Source of the DNA: Candidatus Nealsoniibacteriota bacterium
GTDB lineage: Bacteria > Patescibacteriota > Minisyncoccia > Minisyncoccales > GWA2-38-27
NCBI GenBank assembly: GCA_003556925.1
Contig: PWQC01000041.1
Location: 1 to 13,974, forward strand
Direction of reading: 5' to 3'
DNA length: 13,974 bases
Below are positions 1,962 through 9,990 of this stretch, piece by piece. Both the position numbers and the translations under genes were made by a program. Positions within the stretch are counted from its first letter, which is position 1. Every line of letters starts with the position of its first letter. The notes under the pieces are model-generated. The model ran no database searches, was not told the origin of the DNA, and saw only the letters and a program-made list of their open reading frames with translations.

Positions 1962-3092
1962 ATGTTTTTCAAGAAAAAAAAAGAAGAAACTTTCAAGGAA
2001 TTTTATAAAAATTTCCTTGCCCCCTTCAAAGAAGAGGGAGACAAGCTTCTCTCTGTCATCGAAGTCTTTGAAGACGGCATTCTTTTTTTAGACGAAAACC
2101 AGAAAATCGTTCTTATTAACCCTAAGGCAGAAGAAATTTTAGAGGCTAAGAGAGACGATCTTTTCAATAAATCTCCCTTAAAACTAAATCATCTTCCCAA
2201 CTTTAAACCCCTCGTTCCATTTTTAATTGAAAAAGAAAAGATCAAAAAAGAGATAATGGTTAGTAATAATCACTATTTTTCCTTATCCATTGTTCCTGTT
2301 TATTCTCAAGAAAAATTTTTAGGAACCATCGCTACTATAAAAGACATTACCCAGTTAAAGATGAACGAAAAAGCTAAGAGCAATTTTGTAACTTTGGCCG
2401 CTCATCAATTCAGAACGCCCACTTCGGCGATAAAGTGGGCTCTGTCAACTCTTTTGAAAGGAAACTCGGACAATTTAACCGCTCAACAGCTATCTCTCCT
2501 TCAAAAGACATATGATATGAATATGGGTATGATTAATTTAATCAACAATTTTCTGAATTTTGTCAAAACAGAAAAAGGAGAGCTACTTCTTAAACCAATC
2601 CTTGTCCAGTTTGAAGACTTTGTCTTAAAGATCGTTAAAGAAAACAGAGAAAGAATAGAAATGAAACAATTAAAATTAAACTTTAGATCTCCTTCCGAAT
2701 CTTTTCCAAAGATAATGATTGATCCGGTTAAAATGAAAGTAGTTGTGGAAAATATATTGGATAACGCCATAAGATATACTCAGGAAAAAGGAACGATTGA
2801 TATCTATTTCAGAAGAGAAGAAGAAGAGATCAATGTCTACTTTCAAGATAGCGGAAGAGGAATTCCAAAGAGCCAACAAGATAATGTTTTCTCTTATTTC
2901 TTTCGAGGTTCAAATATTGTTCAGGTGTACACCGAAGGAATAGGACTGGGCCTTTTCTTGGCAAAAAGCATTATAGAAGCCCATGAAGGAAGAATCTGGT
3001 TCGAGTCAGTTGAAAACAGAGGAAGTCTTTTTGCCTTCTCTCTTCCCATTAAAAAAGATTTTGACGAATTTATAACAAAAGATTTTTATTAA
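1962..3092 (+). CDS. soluble PAS-domain sensor histidine kinase (copy 1)
   Basis: A 376-residue cytoplasmic kinase: a lysine-rich N-terminus, one PAS domain (about 27-130, opening with VIEVFEDGILFLDENQKIVL and ending in IKDIT), a HisKA dimerisation domain with H-box AAHQFRTP (phosphorylatable H148), and a HATPase_c domain with N-box NILDNA (264-269), G1 DSGRGIP (296-302) and G2 GIGLGL (326-331). There is no signal peptide, membrane helix or HAMP domain, so it probably senses an internal cue through PAS. The H-box has Gln where most HisKA kinases have the acidic residue after His. It starts one base after the exonuclease stop and ends one base before the second kinase, both junctions reading TAATATG, so expression is probably coupled. 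The likely partners are the two receiver proteins downstream. The signal is unknown. Confidence 0.94.
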   Translation: MFFKKKKEETFKEFYKNFLAPFKEEGDKLLSVIEVFEDGILFLDENQKIVLINPKAEEILEAKRDDLFNKSPLKLNHLPNFKPLVPFLIEKEKIKKEIMVSNNHYFSLSIVPVYSQEKFLGTIATIKDITQLKMNEKAKSNFVTLAAHQFRTPTSAIKWALSTLLKGNSDNLTAQQLSLLQKTYDMNMGMINLINNFLNFVKTEKGELLLKPILVQFEDFVLKIVKENRERIEMKQLKLNFRSPSESFPKIMIDPVKMKVVVENILDNAIRYTQEKGTIDIYFRREEEEINVYFQDSGRGIPKSQQDNVFSYFFRGSNIVQVYTEGIGLGLFLAKSIIEAHEGRIWFESVENRGSLFAFSLPIKKDFDEFITKDFY

Positions 3093-3093
3093 T

Positions 3094-4143
3094 ATGACCC
3101 AGAAAACAAACGATCAAGAAATTTTAGCTGTTTCAAAGATAATCTCTATTTTCACCGATGGTATTCTTTTTTTTGACCAATCAAATAAACTCGTCTTAAT
3201 GAATAAGGAGGCAGAAAAGATCTTAAACATCTCTAAAAAAGACGTAATAAGAAAAAAAATTATAGAATTGATAGGCACACCTTATTTAGAAAATATTGTT
3301 GGAGCCCTATTGTCTGGCCGTAAAAAACGCTGGGAAGAAGAGATGGAAATTAATGAAAAAATTATTAACGTTTCCTTTGTTAAGAATAACGGCACCTTAA
3401 TCGTTTTACACGACATCACGAAAGAAAAGATGGTAGAACAGATGAAAAATGAATTTGTTTCCATCGTGGCTCACCAACTAAGAACACCTATCTCTTCTAT
3501 TAAGTGGACCTTGAAGATGTTTTTAGAAGAAAGCTTTGGCCGAACCACCAAAGAACAAAAGAAATATTTAAAAAAAATATATACCGTTAATGAAAAGATG
3601 GTAGAATTAATTAATGACCTTTTAAACATCGCAAAGATAGAAGAGGGAAGATATGTTTATAAGCCTGTCTCAACTAACTTGGGACGGTTAATAGACTCAA
3701 CCATAGAACAGTTCAAAGAAAAAGCCGAAGCTAAAAATATCAAAATTTCTTTTAATAATTTAGAAAAAAACGCTAAAGTTGTTGTTGATCCGGAAAAGAT
3801 AAAATTGGTTCTTCAAAATTTAATTGATAACGCTATTAAATATAACCACGAAGAAGGAAAGGTTATGATTGCTTTAAAAAAAGAGGAAGACAACCTGCTG
3901 GTCTCAGTAAAGGATACGGGTATGGGAATTCCTACAAACCAACAAAAAAGAATCTTTACCAAATTTTTTAGAGCGGCTAATGTCATGAAAACAGACGCCG
4001 AAGGTTCGGGCTTGGGCCTTTATATCAACAAAGAACTTATTGAGGCTCATGGAGGAAAGATATGGTTTGAGTCAGTTGAAAAAAAAGGAAGCTCTTTCTA
4101 TTTCTCTCTCCCCTTGCAAAAAAATAAAAATAAGATAAAATAA
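3094..4143 (+). CDS. soluble PAS-domain sensor histidine kinase (copy 2)
   Basis: A 349-residue paralogue of the preceding kinase with the same architecture. The PAS domain spans about 10-112 (IISIFTDGILFFDQSNKLVL to VLHDIT). The H-box is VAHQLRTP with H127, the N-box LIDNAIKY lies around 243-250, G1 is DTGMGIP (274-280) and G2 is GSGLGL (304-309). The C-terminal GKIWFESVEKKGSSF closely matches copy 1, consistent with tandem duplication followed by divergence, strongest in PAS. No membrane segment is seen. The same Glu-to-Gln change after the H-box His is present. The gene ends six bases before the first response regulator, the order expected for a kinase-regulator unit. Different PAS domains suggest the two kinases answer to different cues. 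Confidence 0.94.
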   Translation: MTQKTNDQEILAVSKIISIFTDGILFFDQSNKLVLMNKEAEKILNISKKDVIRKKIIELIGTPYLENIVGALLSGRKKRWEEEMEINEKIINVSFVKNNGTLIVLHDITKEKMVEQMKNEFVSIVAHQLRTPISSIKWTLKMFLEESFGRTTKEQKKYLKKIYTVNEKMVELINDLLNIAKIEEGRYVYKPVSTNLGRLIDSTIEQFKEKAEAKNIKISFNNLEKNAKVVVDPEKIKLVLQNLIDNAIKYNHEEGKVMIALKKEEDNLLVSVKDTGMGIPTNQQKRIFTKFFRAANVMKTDAEGSGLGLYINKELIEAHGGKIWFESVEKKGSSFYFSLPLQKNKNKIK

Positions 4144-4149
4144 AAACGT

Positions 4150-4518
4150 ATGAAGAAAAAAATATTAATTGTAGAGGATGATCGTTTCCTAAGAGAGTTA
4201 ATCGCCAAAAAGATAAAAGAGCAAGGATATGACGTAAGTGAAGCGGGAGATGGAGAAAGCGGGCTAAAACTGATAAAAGAGACAAAGCTCGACTTAATTT
4301 TACTTGATCTTATTCTTCCGGGCATCGACGGCTTTCAGGTTCTTAAAAATATCAAACAAGACCCAGAGACGGCCGACATCCCGGTAATTATTCTTTCCAA
4401 TCTTGGTCAAAAAGAAGATATCGATAAGGGTATGGATCTTGGCGCAGAAGACTTTCTAATCAAAGCTCATTTTACTCCCGGAGAAATTATTGAAAAAATA
4501 AAAATAACATTAGATTAA
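4150..4518 (+). CDS. single-domain response regulator (receiver only, copy 1)
   Basis: A 122-residue CheY-like receiver with no output domain. Seen: acidic pair E9-D10 in ILIVED, phosphoacceptor D53 in LILLDLILPG, switch Ser S83 in ILSN and conserved K105 in LIKA. The protein ends right after the last receiver helix, so it must act by protein-protein contact or as a phosphorelay intermediate, not by binding DNA. It follows the two kinases by six bases and is followed by a close duplicate seven bases later. By my alignment the two receivers are about 79 percent identical overall, about 62 percent over the first 47 residues and about 89 percent after that. No Shine-Dalgarno is visible before the ATG. 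Confidence 0.94.
   Translation: MKKKILIVEDDRFLRELIAKKIKEQGYDVSEAGDGESGLKLIKETKLDLILLDLILPGIDGFQVLKNIKQDPETADIPVIILSNLGQKEDIDKGMDLGAEDFLIKAHFTPGEIIEKIKITLD
4309..4406 (+). repeat. 98-base direct repeat, unit 1 (partner at 4682-4779)
   Basis: Counting by eye, 96 of 98 bases match the segment 373 bases downstream, with mismatches at 4345 and 4378. It codes for the region from just after the phosphoacceptor Asp to SNLG in the first receiver gene. Flanking receiver sequence is much more diverged, including at synonymous sites. It is coding sequence shared by two tandem paralogues, not a mobile repeat. Confidence 0.8.
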
Positions 4519-4525
4519 AAAAAAT

Positions 4526-4894
4526 ATGCCAAAAAAAATATTAATCATTGAAGACCACGTCTTTTTAAAAGAGCTCATTGCCAAGCAACTAAACGAAGAA
4601 GGCTATGAAATAATCGAAGCGGAAGATGGAGAAGAGGGCTTAAAAAAAGCAAAAGAAAAGCCTGACTTAATTCTACTCGACCTTATTCTTCCGGGCATCG
4701 ACGGCTTTCAGGTTCTTGAAAATATCAAACAAGACCCAGAGACGGCCGACGTCCCGGTAATTATTCTTTCCAATCTTGGCCAGAAAGAAGATATTGACAA
4801 GGGTATGAGTCTCGGTGCAGAAGACTTTTTAGTTAAAGCTAATTTTACTCCCGGAGAGATTATTGAAAAGGTAAAGAAAAGACTAGATGCCTGA
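4526..4894 (+). CDS. single-domain response regulator (receiver only, copy 2)
   Basis: A 122-residue CheY-like receiver, tandem paralogue of the preceding gene. Acidic pair E9-D10 (IIED), phosphoacceptor D52 (LLDLILPG), switch Ser S82 and K104 (LVKA) are all present, so it should be phosphorylated. The residue after the acidic pair is His, where copy 1 has Asp. Differences cluster in the N-terminal 47 residues, which include alpha-1, the face that normally contacts the kinase, so the two copies may prefer different kinases. No output domain. Its last eight bases overlap the mutM start in another frame, tying the signalling module to mutM in one transcript. Confidence 0.94.
   Translation: MPKKILIIEDHVFLKELIAKQLNEEGYEIIEAEDGEEGLKKAKEKPDLILLDLILPGIDGFQVLENIKQDPETADVPVIILSNLGQKEDIDKGMSLGAEDFLVKANFTPGEIIEKVKKRLDA
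4682..4779 (+). repeat. 98-base direct repeat, unit 2 (partner at 4309-4406)
   Basis: The second copy of the near-identical block within the tandem receiver genes; it differs from the first at two positions by eye. The sharp change in similarity at its edges suggests local gene conversion between the two copies. Confidence 0.8.
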
Positions 4895-6847: not shown

Positions 6848-6876
6848 AAAATAGCATAAAAATTAAAAAACTGCAA
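6848..6876 (-). promoter_or_regulatory. promoter of rpsT
   Basis: On the minus strand TTGCAG (6871-6876), a 17-base spacer ending in TGC, then TATTTT (6848-6853): a sigma70-like -35, extended TG and -10 at ideal spacing. The -35 lies inside the last codons of the methyltransferase gene. The ATG begins nine bases after the -10, so transcription should start at or within a few bases of it. Confidence 0.5.
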
Positions 6877-7534
6877 CTGCCCTCAAGTAAATATTTGATT
6901 TAACTCCTTTCCCTTTAAGATAGACTTCTTTAATCAAAAAACCTTCTCTTTCCACTATTTTTTTTAATTCTCTTTTAGAGAATGCATGATAGTACATATT
7001 ATTTTTAAGCAAAAAGAGGTCTTTAAAATCGAGCTTCGTCTTTCTGATCATCTTTAAGAGGGCATACTTTAGAATCAATCTTTTTTTCTTCTCCCATAAG
7101 TTCCAGACTCTAATGGTTAAAATCCCCCCCGGCTTTAACACTCGATGCATCTCCCTTAAGAATTGCCTCCTCTTTTCTTTGGAAGGAATCTGATGTAAAA
7201 CTCCAATGCTAAATATTTCATCAAAATAATTATCTCTAAAATCAAGACCGAGAAGGTCGGCCCTTTGAAAACAACCCTCGGGATATCTTGTTCTGGCGAT
7301 TTCAATTAATTTCTCTGAAAAATCAACGCCGATATAGTCTGCTTTGTTCAGGAGAGGATAAAGGTAGCCGGAGCCGCAACCGGCATCCAAAACTAAATCA
7401 TCCTTTTTAACATAACGAACAAGCTCCTCTAAATCAGACGGAGCATATCTTCTCGCCATTGCAAAAGTCTTTGAATTAAGGTTATAATCTGTTTGAGTTT
7501 TAGTGCTTAAATATTGAGCGTATTTTTTATCCAT
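6863..7534 (-). CDS. class I SAM-dependent methyltransferase, Trm9/ALKBH8-like (predicted tRNA wobble-uridine carboxymethyl methyltransferase)
   Basis: A 223-residue Rossmann-fold methyltransferase: motif I VLDAGCGSG (48-56), acidic D71 in GVDFS ending beta-2, SIGVLHQIPSKEKRR (109-123), RVLKPGG (131-137) and RVWNLW (142-147). Trm9/ALKBH8 methyltransferases carry the similar string SIAVIHHF..RR..R.LRPGG..LIYVW and a late RYYHVF..GEL; here the late motif is YYHAFSKREL (181-190), followed by EGF. That family esterifies cm5U34 to mcm5U34 in tRNA. The placement back-to-back with Elp3, which makes cm5U34, supports the reading. The ATG at 7534 is preferred; a TTG at 7558 would add eight residues reaching into elp3. 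The methyltransferase fold is certain. The Trm9 role is inference from motifs and context, and a generic small-molecule methyltransferase remains possible. Confidence 0.8.
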   Translation of the reverse strand: MDKKYAQYLSTKTQTDYNLNSKTFAMARRYAPSDLEELVRYVKKDDLVLDAGCGSGYLYPLLNKADYIGVDFSEKLIEIARTRYPEGCFQRADLLGLDFRDNYFDEIFSIGVLHQIPSKEKRRQFLREMHRVLKPGGILTIRVWNLWEKKKRLILKYALLKMIRKTKLDFKDLFLLKNNMYYHAFSKRELKKIVEREGFLIKEVYLKGKGVKSNIYLRAVAVF

Positions 7535-9065
7535 GAATCTAAAAAATGTTAAAAACAAAGAAGAATTAGAAGACTTTAAAAGAGATTTAGCTAAAAAAAG
7601 AGGAGAACAGACAATCTCTAATGTAAACTTGCTTAAAGAGTATCATATTTACTGTAAAAGCAAAAGAAAGAGACCCAATCCTTTTTTGACGGACTTACTG
7701 ATAACCAGAAGCGTAAGGTCTTCTTCGGGCGTAACGGTCGTCTCTGTGCTTACAAAACCTTACCCTTGTCCAGGAAAGTGTATCTTTTGCCCTGAAGAAA
7801 AAGGAATGCCTAAAAGTTATTTTTCTACCGAACCGGCGGTAATGAGAGCTATCGCCTGTTCTTTTAATCCCTACCTTCAGGTTCAAAAAAGACTTCAATC
7901 TTTGAAAGCGAATGGCCACCCAACAGACAAGATAGATTTAATTGTTCTGGGGGGGACTTGGTCTTTTTTAAATAAAAAATACCAGACCAACTTTATCACT
8001 CAATGTTTTTTGGCTGCTAACAACAGTAAAAAAAGACATACATTAGAAAGAGCTCAAAAAATGAACGAGAGAGCCCGGCAGAGAATTATCGGCATTACAG
8101 TAGAAACAAGGCCTGATTTTATTAACGAAAAAGAAGTAATTAGGATGAGAAGACTGGGCATTACTAGAATAGAAATGGGGGTTCAAAGCATCTATGACGA
8201 CGTCTTAAAAAAGAATAAAAGAGGACACGATAGAGGTGAAGTAATTAAGGCGACTTATCTATTAAAAAAAGCCGGCTTTAAAGTTTGCTATCATCTGATG
8301 CCTAACCTTTTGGGGTCAACTTTAAAGAGAGACGAAGAGATGTTTAAAGAAGTATTCCAAGATTCTCGTTTTATGCCTGACTTTTTAAAAATATATCCCT
8401 GTGCTCTTCTAAAAGAGGCCTCTCTTTATAAGATATGGCAAAAAGGAGGATATCATCACTACTCAGAGAAAGAATTAATTAATCTTTTAATAAAAGTAAA
8501 AGCGACTATCCCTCCTTTCTGTCGGATCCAGAGACTTATTAGAGATATTCCTTCTAGGCAGATAGTCTCGGGCCCGGCCAAGATATCAAACTTAAGGCAA
8601 GTCTTAAAGAGGAAAGGAGCAATCTGCCGCTGTATAAGATGTAGGGAGGTGAGAAAACATAATTTAAAAGAAAAGCTCTTCTTGTTTCAGCAAGAATACG
8701 AAGCCTCTTGGGGAAAAGAAATTTTTCTCAGCTATGAAAATAGAGAGCAAAAGAGATTATACAGTTTATTAAGATTAAGGCTACCCTACGAAAAGAAACA
8801 CTTTATTACTTCTTTAAAAGACGCTGCCTTAATAAGAGAAGTTCACACCTTTGGAAGAATTAATCCTTTATTAGCGAAAAAATATTCTTTATCGTTTCAA
8901 CACAAAGGACTGGGCAAAAAGCTTATTAAAAAAGCAGAAGAGACAGCCAGACGCCACGGCTTAAAAAAGATAGCCGTCATCTCGGGAGTGGGAGCGAGAG
9001 AGTATTATAGAAAATTGGGTTATAAAATAGAAGACACTTATATGGTTAAGCCCTTGAAATCCTAG
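7533..9065 (+). CDS. elp3: Elp3-family radical SAM / acetyltransferase (tRNA U34 carboxymethylation)
   Basis: A full-length 510-residue bacterial/archaeal-type Elp3. The radical SAM cluster ligands are C79, C83 and C86 in CPGKCIFC, followed by MPKSYFSTEPAVMRA and LIVLGGTWS (137-144), all Elp3 signatures. TVETRPDF (189-196), IEMGVQS (213-219) and HLMPNLLGS (254-262) continue the barrel. The zinc-binding CRCIRCREV spans 365-373. The GNAT domain follows: RELHTFG-type REVHTFG (435-441), acetyl-CoA loop QHKGLGKKL (456-464) and SGVGAREYYRKLGY (484-497). Elp3 makes 5-carboxymethyl-uridine at the tRNA wobble position from acetyl-CoA. No other Elongator subunits are visible, as in other prokaryotes with Elp3. 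The start shares CATG with the divergent methyltransferase start, and the 3' end overlaps the NIF3 gene by 20 bases. Confidence 0.96.
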   Translation: MNLKNVKNKEELEDFKRDLAKKRGEQTISNVNLLKEYHIYCKSKRKRPNPFLTDLLITRSVRSSSGVTVVSVLTKPYPCPGKCIFCPEEKGMPKSYFSTEPAVMRAIACSFNPYLQVQKRLQSLKANGHPTDKIDLIVLGGTWSFLNKKYQTNFITQCFLAANNSKKRHTLERAQKMNERARQRIIGITVETRPDFINEKEVIRMRRLGITRIEMGVQSIYDDVLKKNKRGHDRGEVIKATYLLKKAGFKVCYHLMPNLLGSTLKRDEEMFKEVFQDSRFMPDFLKIYPCALLKEASLYKIWQKGGYHHYSEKELINLLIKVKATIPPFCRIQRLIRDIPSRQIVSGPAKISNLRQVLKRKGAICRCIRCREVRKHNLKEKLFLFQQEYEASWGKEIFLSYENREQKRLYSLLRLRLPYEKKHFITSLKDAALIREVHTFGRINPLLAKKYSLSFQHKGLGKKLIKKAEETARRHGLKKIAVISGVGAREYYRKLGYKIEDTYMVKPLKS

Positions 9066-9990
9066 TTAACCCCGAGCAAGGAACAATGGCCACTCCTTTT
9101 TTTTCTAATTCGTCGAGAAAGAGATTAACTCCCAAAGAATCGGAAGAGATGTGGCCGGCGATGACCACATTCAAATTAGCTGCTTCCGCCGCTTTTTTAT
9201 TTTCTTCAGAGATGTGCATCCCAACAACTGTTCCGATTCCGGCTTGAGCCATCTTCTCATAAAGCTTTGCTGAGCCCTCTGTCCCGCCGGTAATCTCGGT
9301 CAAAACAATCTTGCCGCAATAATTTTCTTCTTGACCAGCAAAGACTTTGGGGCCAGCTCCTATCTTTTCCGCTTCTTGGTACTCCGGAATCAATTTTAAA
9401 GTTTTTATTAAGTCTTCCACTCTCTGAAAGTTTTCTTTCTCAATCTTTTTCTTTAAAAAATTGGCGGCTAAATTATCACAAACAGTATGAAAACAGACCA
9501 AGTTTAACCCTAAGAGCTTAGCAGCATCTACCGTCCTTTGATGGTTGACCGCATTTATTCCTCTAGCCACTTCTGAAATTCTCTCTTTAGTTAATTTTTC
9601 GGCGATATTAATGGGAACTCCGTACTGATTTAAAACTTCAACTTGAAGATCCATCACGTCAGTCAGATGAGCAAGGCCGACACCCAAAGGATGGTGAGAA
9701 AAAACTAAATCTACCTCCTTAAGTTCCTTGGCGATCAACAGCTCGGCTGGATCAATGTCGATGCCAACCAAAATCTTTTTTATCTCTCTATCTTCGGCGA
9801 TATGTAGGACTCGACTATCCAAAAAAGGATTACTCAAGGCCTCTATATCAAATCTTTTCTTTTCTTCTTCAGAAAGTTTTTCATATTTTTCTCTCTTCCT
9901 CGCAAGGTTTTGTTTAATCTTTTCTCCGCCCCTTAAGTCAGATTCTATCCCCATCTTTATGGCTAAATTATAGATATCCTTAATTTTCAT
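9046..9990 (-). CDS. NIF3/YbgI-family metal-binding protein
   Basis: A 314-residue member of the NIF3 family (also called DUF34, Nif3-like dinuclear metal center proteins). Metal-ligand motifs: FSHHPLG with H99-H100, HTVCDN with H168 and D172, and the later GHISSDSLG with H280. ILVGIDIDPAE (73-83) is the usual first strand. Family members bind two divalent metals; the substrate is not established, with GTP cyclohydrolase I-like or metal-handling roles proposed. An N-terminal extension of about 70 charged residues precedes the core. The ATG at 9990 overlaps the stop of a 42-residue gene by 11 bases. It is the last gene of a minus-strand run and converges with elp3, overlapping by 20 bases. Confidence 0.88.
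   Translation of the reverse strand: MKIKDIYNLAIKMGIESDLRGGEKIKQNLARKREKYEKLSEEEKKRFDIEALSNPFLDSRVLHIAEDREIKKILVGIDIDPAELLIAKELKEVDLVFSHHPLGVGLAHLTDVMDLQVEVLNQYGVPINIAEKLTKERISEVARGINAVNHQRTVDAAKLLGLNLVCFHTVCDNLAANFLKKKIEKENFQRVEDLIKTLKLIPEYQEAEKIGAGPKVFAGQEENYCGKIVLTEITGGTEGSAKLYEKMAQAGIGTVVGMHISEENKKAAEAANLNVVIAGHISSDSLGVNLFLDELEKKGVAIVPCSGLTRISRA

Follow-up and report, generated by a model that had tools for sequence, protein, structure and literature searches.

The stretch of DNA analysed here (13,974 nucleotides, hereafter the window) makes up contig 44 in a draft genome of Candidatus Nealsoniibacteriota bacterium (335,519 bases in 44 contigs, 61% complete), and carries an elp3 gene back-to-back with a methyltransferase gene. 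This arrangement raises the question of whether the two products jointly modify the wobble uridine of tRNA, as the first-pass annotation had predicted. That reading is supported by the adjacency of the genes, by the missing MnmE and MnmG and by Trm9 being the nearest relative of the methyltransferase, and we consider it likely that Elp3 and the Trm9-like methyltransferase constitute a minimal, Trm112-free wobble-uridine pathway leading from cm5U to a predicted product, mcm5U34.

Both open reading frames of the annotated pair, including a complete Elp3, were recovered on opposite strands (Table 1), and the methyltransferase signatures listed for it (SIGVLHQIPSKEKRR, RVLKPGG, TIRVW and YYHAFSKREL) are all present in the translation. 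The longest methyltransferase open reading frame (6863-7558, minus strand) begins with a TTG at 7558, adding eight residues to the protein that starts at the ATG at 7534-7532. The latter corresponds to a Met conserved in 42 of 43 aligned relatives, was taken as the methyltransferase start, and overlaps the elp3 ATG within one CATG. Since the start region is common to both genes, their promoters must be located either within the partner gene or at another site; a promoter consensus scan at the window pair detected sites no more numerous than in shuffles. Ribosomal protein S20 adjoins the methyltransferase on its far side, and a DUF34/NIF3 protein is encoded beyond Elp3 on the opposite strand (9046-9990), overlapping the elp3 3' end. 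Elsewhere in the window (1962-4894), two histidine-kinase-like genes in tandem precede a pair of closely similar response-regulator-like genes, as identified by eye.

Table 1. Features of the window pair and DUF7411 genes adjacent to elp3 in other genomes.
Feature	Position	Strand	Basis
elp3, 510 aa, radical SAM domain and KAT/GNAT domain	7533..9065	+	TIGR01211, domain matches, PDB matches
Elp3 [4Fe-4S] cysteines C79, C83, C86 (CX3CX2C)	7767..7790	+	Motif survey of Elp3 copies
Elp3 E191, K286, Y288 (M. infernus Elp3 E207, K302, Y304)	8103..8396	+	Alignment
Elp3 CRCIRC (365-370), zinc motif of prokaryotic Elp3	8625..8642	+	Motif reading; PMC6367351
CATG common to elp3 and methyltransferase start codons; no intergenic space	7532..7535	.	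Sequence reading
Trm9-like class I methyltransferase, 223 aa from ATG at 7534	6863..7534	-	Methyltransf_11 78.3 bits; 5cm2_Z; conserved start
Methyltransferase N-terminal signature, consensus DYNLIAxxFSRTRxxxW, including R36 (Trm9 R29)	7439..7489	-	Family alignment
Methyltransferase H122 (Trm9 H115)	7193..7195	-	43/43
Methyltransferase MYYHAF (188-193)	6980..6997	-	Y189, H191, F193 in 43/43
Methyltransferase N222 (Trm9 N271)	6893..6895	-	Family alignment
DUF7411 PP-loop ATPase genes	L164:5915-6517, L165:2428-3069, L166:5678-6304	Divergent to elp3	Trm9-like gene absent
DUF7411 PP-loop ATPase genes, continued	L167:4838-5485, L168:2960-3619, L177:2805-3407	Divergent to elp3	Trm9-like gene absent

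The window Elp3 matched TIGR01211 over its full length (543.7 bits, residues 4-507, cut-off 350), a domain search identified radical SAM, radical SAM C-terminal and GNAT domains, and the best PDB matches were the ELP3-family structures 6iad, 6iaz and 6ia8 (E 3.1e-125 to 7.5e-125). Of 142 non-archaeal Elp3 copies, some genomes being counted twice, 141 show the CX3CX2C cysteine spacing of the window protein, and 8 of 11 copies from archaeal loci show CX4CX2C. A Micrarchaeota Elp3 (L194, genome G522) presents the CX3CX2C spacing otherwise typical of bacterial copies, possibly through gene exchange. The M. infernus register was set as a 16-residue offset because all three residues (E, K and Y) fit, and in the available text of PMC13315578 mutations of these residues inactivate M. 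infernus Elp3, with Y304F retaining partial activity. The motif holding E191 is conserved in 136 of 141 Elp3 copies, and that holding K286-Y288 in 140 of 141. Three zinc cysteines are described for Elp3 in the available text of PMC6367351, which also describes a basic N-terminal stretch in archaeal and eukaryotic Elp3; the window protein has a resembling stretch, with 78 residues ahead of the first cysteine and 15 K/R in the first 60. Judged by its sequence, the window Elp3 is canonical, keeping the Fe-S cysteines, E191/K286/Y288 and the KAT domain, and is predicted to form cm5U34.

The pairing of both genes was surveyed in a nearer sample of 147 genomes, comprising that of the window and its relatives (those listed belonging to its genus, family or order), in which methyltransferase matches had E 4.6e-25 or better. 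The methyltransferase was detected in 97 of these genomes and Elp3 in 106; 94 carried both genes, 12 Elp3 alone, three the methyltransferase alone and 38 neither, a co-occurrence with a Fisher p of 4e-21 when kinship is ignored. The genes are divergent neighbours in 88 of the 94 two-gene genomes, with gaps between matched ends of -20 to 700 bp (median 14.5 bp), and a methyltransferase start cut by a contig end lies beside elp3 in another genome (G025), bringing divergent neighbours to 89 of the 106. In five genomes of one family (f43), the methyltransferase is divergent but lies 3-5 kb from Elp3, with rlmN, idi and other genes intervening (by eye). In some of the 94 two-gene genomes, Elp3 or the methyltransferase is present as a fragment at a contig end. 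As for the genomes with Elp3 alone, Elp3 reaches the end of its contig on the side where a partner would lie in four (G024, G073, G132 and G144), and elp3 is broken in two that have no methyltransferase match (G015, with a stretch missing, and G079, with a frame change that could be an assembly error). A different gene occupies the slot in the other six (G017, G057, G062, G088, G107 and G122). When the contig-end and broken-elp3 genomes are left out, the remaining 100 all have a partner for elp3: the methyltransferase in 94 and another gene in six.

A phylum sample of 380 genomes, the window's included, for which at least 85% completeness had been asked, yielded Elp3 in 136. Among these, the methyltransferase was divergent within 3 kb in 88 (80 within 300 bp) and, among the matches listed, elsewhere in 15; the other 33 had no methyltransferase among the matches listed (to about E 2e-22). 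Counted by family, 36 of the 39 that bear Elp3 in the nearer sample show the divergent pair, as do 42 of the 62 in the phylum sample, bearing out the conserved adjacency on which the annotated reading depended, and 73 families overall present the pair, the two samples having a few genomes in common. Family f80 (L174, L175 and L176) keeps Elp3 without methyltransferase or DUF7411; nearby are a gene resembling nucleoside-diphosphate kinase (by eye) and one of the uracil-DNA-glycosylase family (by search in L176, by eye in L174 and L175).

In a wider scan, an alignment of yeast Trm9 (as first sequence) and 12 relatives was searched against genomes of 84,980 species; because this alignment is mostly bacterial, the scan is biased towards Patescibacteria. 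The 80 loci considered, the best 80 of 103, came from Patescibacteria in most cases, from archaea in a few and from other bacteria in two, and the groups represented include Nealsonbacteria, Staskawiczbacteria, Moranbacteria, Magasanikbacteria and Portnoybacteria. Elp3 was present in 67 of these best 80 of 103 loci, two Pacearchaeota included, in divergent orientation in 65 and convergent in two. As a neighbour control, the 12 other window genes, about eight of which lie near enough for flanks of up to 4 kb to catch, were sought around the best 80 of 103 loci; 11 of the 12 recur in 0-1 loci, which argues that the pairing does not stem from general gene-order conservation. A NIF3 relative appears in 21 of the best 80 of 103 loci, far above any neighbour outside the pair. 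The two Pacearchaeota loci (L085 and L088) hold a divergent pair of Elp3 and a Trm9-like protein, and genome G523 also encodes a second, higher-scoring Elp3.

The identity of the methyltransferase was addressed by profile searches, trees and fold comparison. A single-sequence PDB search returned Yarrowia Trm9 (5cm2_Z) in first place (E 2.3e-13). The whole-protein profile ranked Trm9 second, 0.5 bits behind the uncharacterised 1ve3, and the profile of the C-terminal half ranked it first (E 0.0038), as the sole PDB match below E 0.4, with 19.2 bits for Trm9 and 18.3 and 17.6 bits for two paralogs. The affinity with Trm9 put forward in the first-pass annotation hence holds by single sequence and by C-terminal half. 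A first tree placed the methyltransferase relative to Trm9 without resolution, and a second, built after leaving out seven long rows and with a single, truncated eukaryotic sequence, gave low support (63/39) to a group that joins it to yeast Trm9 and the archaeal Trm9-like proteins, apart from 17 others. NCBIfam models placed the protein loosely among DVU_1556, UbiE, BioC and others, below every cut-off shown. This placement would suit an enzyme that targets a small molecule or a protein, its gene order being an inherited accident or a matter of shared regulation, but such a role appears very improbable given the spread of the pair over 73 families, the near absence from the best 80 of 103 loci of 11 of the 12 other window genes (NIF3 being the exception, and some of the 12 lying beyond the flanks) and the lack of the methyltransferase wherever elp3 is broken (two genomes).

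The predicted structure of the methyltransferase (pLDDT 95.4) can be superimposed on 167 residues of Trm9 at 1.7 A, yet fold comparison does not discriminate between candidate families, with METTL6 as the first Foldseek match (E 3.7e-17) and likewise above Trm9 in VIA-align. METTL6 acts on position 32 and was also present in the sequence search (E 8.2e-6), so that the methyltransferase might modify another anticodon-loop position, such as m3C32, and be paired with Elp3 through a shared target loop. We regard this as unlikely, since by sequence Trm9 is the better match by seven orders of magnitude, and the H115 and N271 positions are conserved along with the lid YxH.

Residue conservation was examined in an alignment of 43 methyltransferase relatives, with a provisional register for the yeast (ScTrm9) numbering. 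The reference positions were R29, H115, R241, Y243 and N271 of ScTrm9 (PMC5372719), and four of the five appear to be kept in the window methyltransferase (R36, H122, Y190 and N222, with M188 at the fifth). The residue equivalent to R29 is R in 41 of the 43 relatives, that equivalent to H115 is H in all 43, and that equivalent to N271 is N in 39 and D in four; the Y243 position holds Y in 19 and F in 13. At the R241 position, 34 of 43 relatives have R and the window protein has Met, so that the lid motif, RYYHLY in Trm9 and RYxHxF in most relatives, reads MYYHAF; the window lid is also shortened and lacks PW. With these differences from Trm9 at Arg241 and in the lid, the precise activity of the window copy can be stated with less certainty than the family's. 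The family might make mcm5U while the window enzyme has changed or weakened by genus-level drift, as the restriction of Met188 to this copy and its sister L005 among the 43 and the strong effect of R241A on tRNA affinity and activity of yeast Trm9 (PMC5372719) would suggest. Such drift is nonetheless improbable in our estimation, with four of five key positions and the gene pair intact in the window, and seven other relatives also lacking Arg at this position, indicating that its loss may be tolerated.

The proposed pathway also rests on missing alternatives. MnmE and MnmG, for which the first-pass annotation had proposed a search, were missing: neither was found over cut-off in any of the 147 nearer-sample genomes, 10 of which gave weak MnmE matches to one part of the model, taken as the GTPase part. 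Each was over cut-off in 9 of 14 control genomes. In the phylum sample, MnmG was detected in 5 of 380 genomes, all five without an Elp3 match. The remark that no Trm112 was in sight agrees with the lack of any PF03966 match in the 61% complete window genome. No free-standing Trm112 was found over cut-off in the 147 genomes, the seven matches above it all lying within frames of 246-365 aa. A 74-aa Trm112-like frame in one genome (G101) fell just below cut-off (21 vs 22 bits), implying that small divergent Trm112 proteins could be missed. Since no Trm112 partner was found, the methyltransferase is not classed as a Trm9-Trm112 enzyme. MnmA was present in 31 of 34 genomes, including that of the window.

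The reactions of Elp3, Trm9 and MnmA are established. In the proposed pathway, Elp3 would use SAM and an acetyl group to place a carboxymethyl on C5 of U34 (cm5U34), and the Trm9-like enzyme would transfer a methyl from SAM to the cm5U34 carboxylate, giving the ester mcm5U34; in tRNAs thiolated by MnmA the product would probably be mcm5s2U34. The pair would thereby replace MnmE/MnmG and work without Trm112. The proposal is based on gene content, conserved pairing, missing alternatives and conserved residues. We infer the substrate, product and Trm112 independence of the methyltransferase: the cm5U34 step follows from the known Elp3 reaction, the ester step from Trm9 similarity and pairing, and Trm112 independence from the absence of Trm112 in the searches.

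The gene that occupies the slot beside elp3 in six genomes is divergent to elp3 (Table 1) and encodes DUF7411 (PF24167), a PP-loop ATPase of roughly 200 aa that is uncharacterised. PF24167 scores were 225.9-247.6 bits in five copies from family f5 and 238.5 bits in G057; five of the six genomes being one family, the occurrences represent two lineages. In G017, another short open reading frame lies between elp3 and DUF7411. Among 80 chosen genomes, DUF7411 was found in 6 of 45 with Elp3 but no listed methyltransferase, in none of 25 with Elp3 and the methyltransferase and in none of 10 without Elp3; the named controls contained it in 3 of 14 (M. jannaschii, H. volcanii and M. acetivorans). A SLOG-family gene follows DUF7411 in L164 and, by eye, in L165 and L166. 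In a further genome with Elp3 and no listed methyltransferase (G164), an asparagine-synthase-like ATPase and a SLOG-family gene are divergent to elp3 (L183:1954-2805 and 2777-3337).

DUF7411 proteins are related to MJ0690 (3k32). QueC and Dph6, both PP-loop ATPases, turn a carboxylate into a nitrile or amide, but thiolases belong to the PP-loop ATPases as well, and fold comparison of DUF7411 does not separate these two kinds. Tentatively, the elp3-adjacent slot may hold a cm5U-finishing enzyme, the Trm9-like protein yielding mcm5U and DUF7411 with ATP conceivably yielding ncm5U or cnm5U and acting also as the archaeal cnm5U/ncm5U synthase. As a cm5U amidating or cyanating enzyme, DUF7411 is a candidate, a lead and not a result. 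A literature search found no paper on DUF7411, MJ0690, PRK14561 or PF24167. According to the available text of PMC7694415, cnm5U occurs in M. jannaschii, M. maripaludis and haloarchaea, through enzymes that it calls unknown, and that of PMC6367351 calls the ncm5U-forming enzyme unknown, making the DUF7411 partner a testable candidate for both reactions.

If correct, the proposed Elp3 and Trm9-like pathway would extend an ester-type, eukaryote-like wobble modification to a very large bacterial group and explain two-codon-box reading in cells without MnmE/MnmG, and the Trm112-free two-gene set would provide an uncomplicated setting in which to study how cm5U becomes mcm5U. Like MnmE-MnmG(-MnmC), the pair would act on C5 of U34 and could be combined with MnmA thiolation, but with other enzymes and another side chain, MnmE/MnmG not being found here. 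Dehalococcoides mccartyi Elp3 is also a bacterial stand-alone Elp3, but according to the available text of PMC6367351 lacks the basic N-terminal extension; the window protein has such a stretch. The bacterial methyltransferase appears to share with Trm9-Trm112/ALKBH8 (5cm2) the class I fold, the R29, H115, Y243 and N271 positions and an Elp3 partner and, in most of the family, the DxxxPW and RYYH lid of Trm9. It differs in being bacterial, in its head-to-head arrangement with elp3, in having no Trm112 found and, in the window, in lacking Arg241 and PW. Yeast Trm9, ABH8 and plant TRM9 require Trm112 (PMC5372719), and for archaeal Trm9 the available text of PMC7694415 reports action together with Trm112. 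A literature search of open-licence papers found no description of the Elp3/Trm9-like pair in bacteria, and the closest precedent found is the predicted elp3-trm9 cluster of Sulfolobus solfataricus, as given in the available text of PMC2584109. The window Elp3 differs from that system in being bacterial, with CX3CX2C spacing, but in both cases Elp3 is clustered with a Trm9 homologue, the Sulfolobus Elp3 standing, in the same text, without other Elongator subunits.
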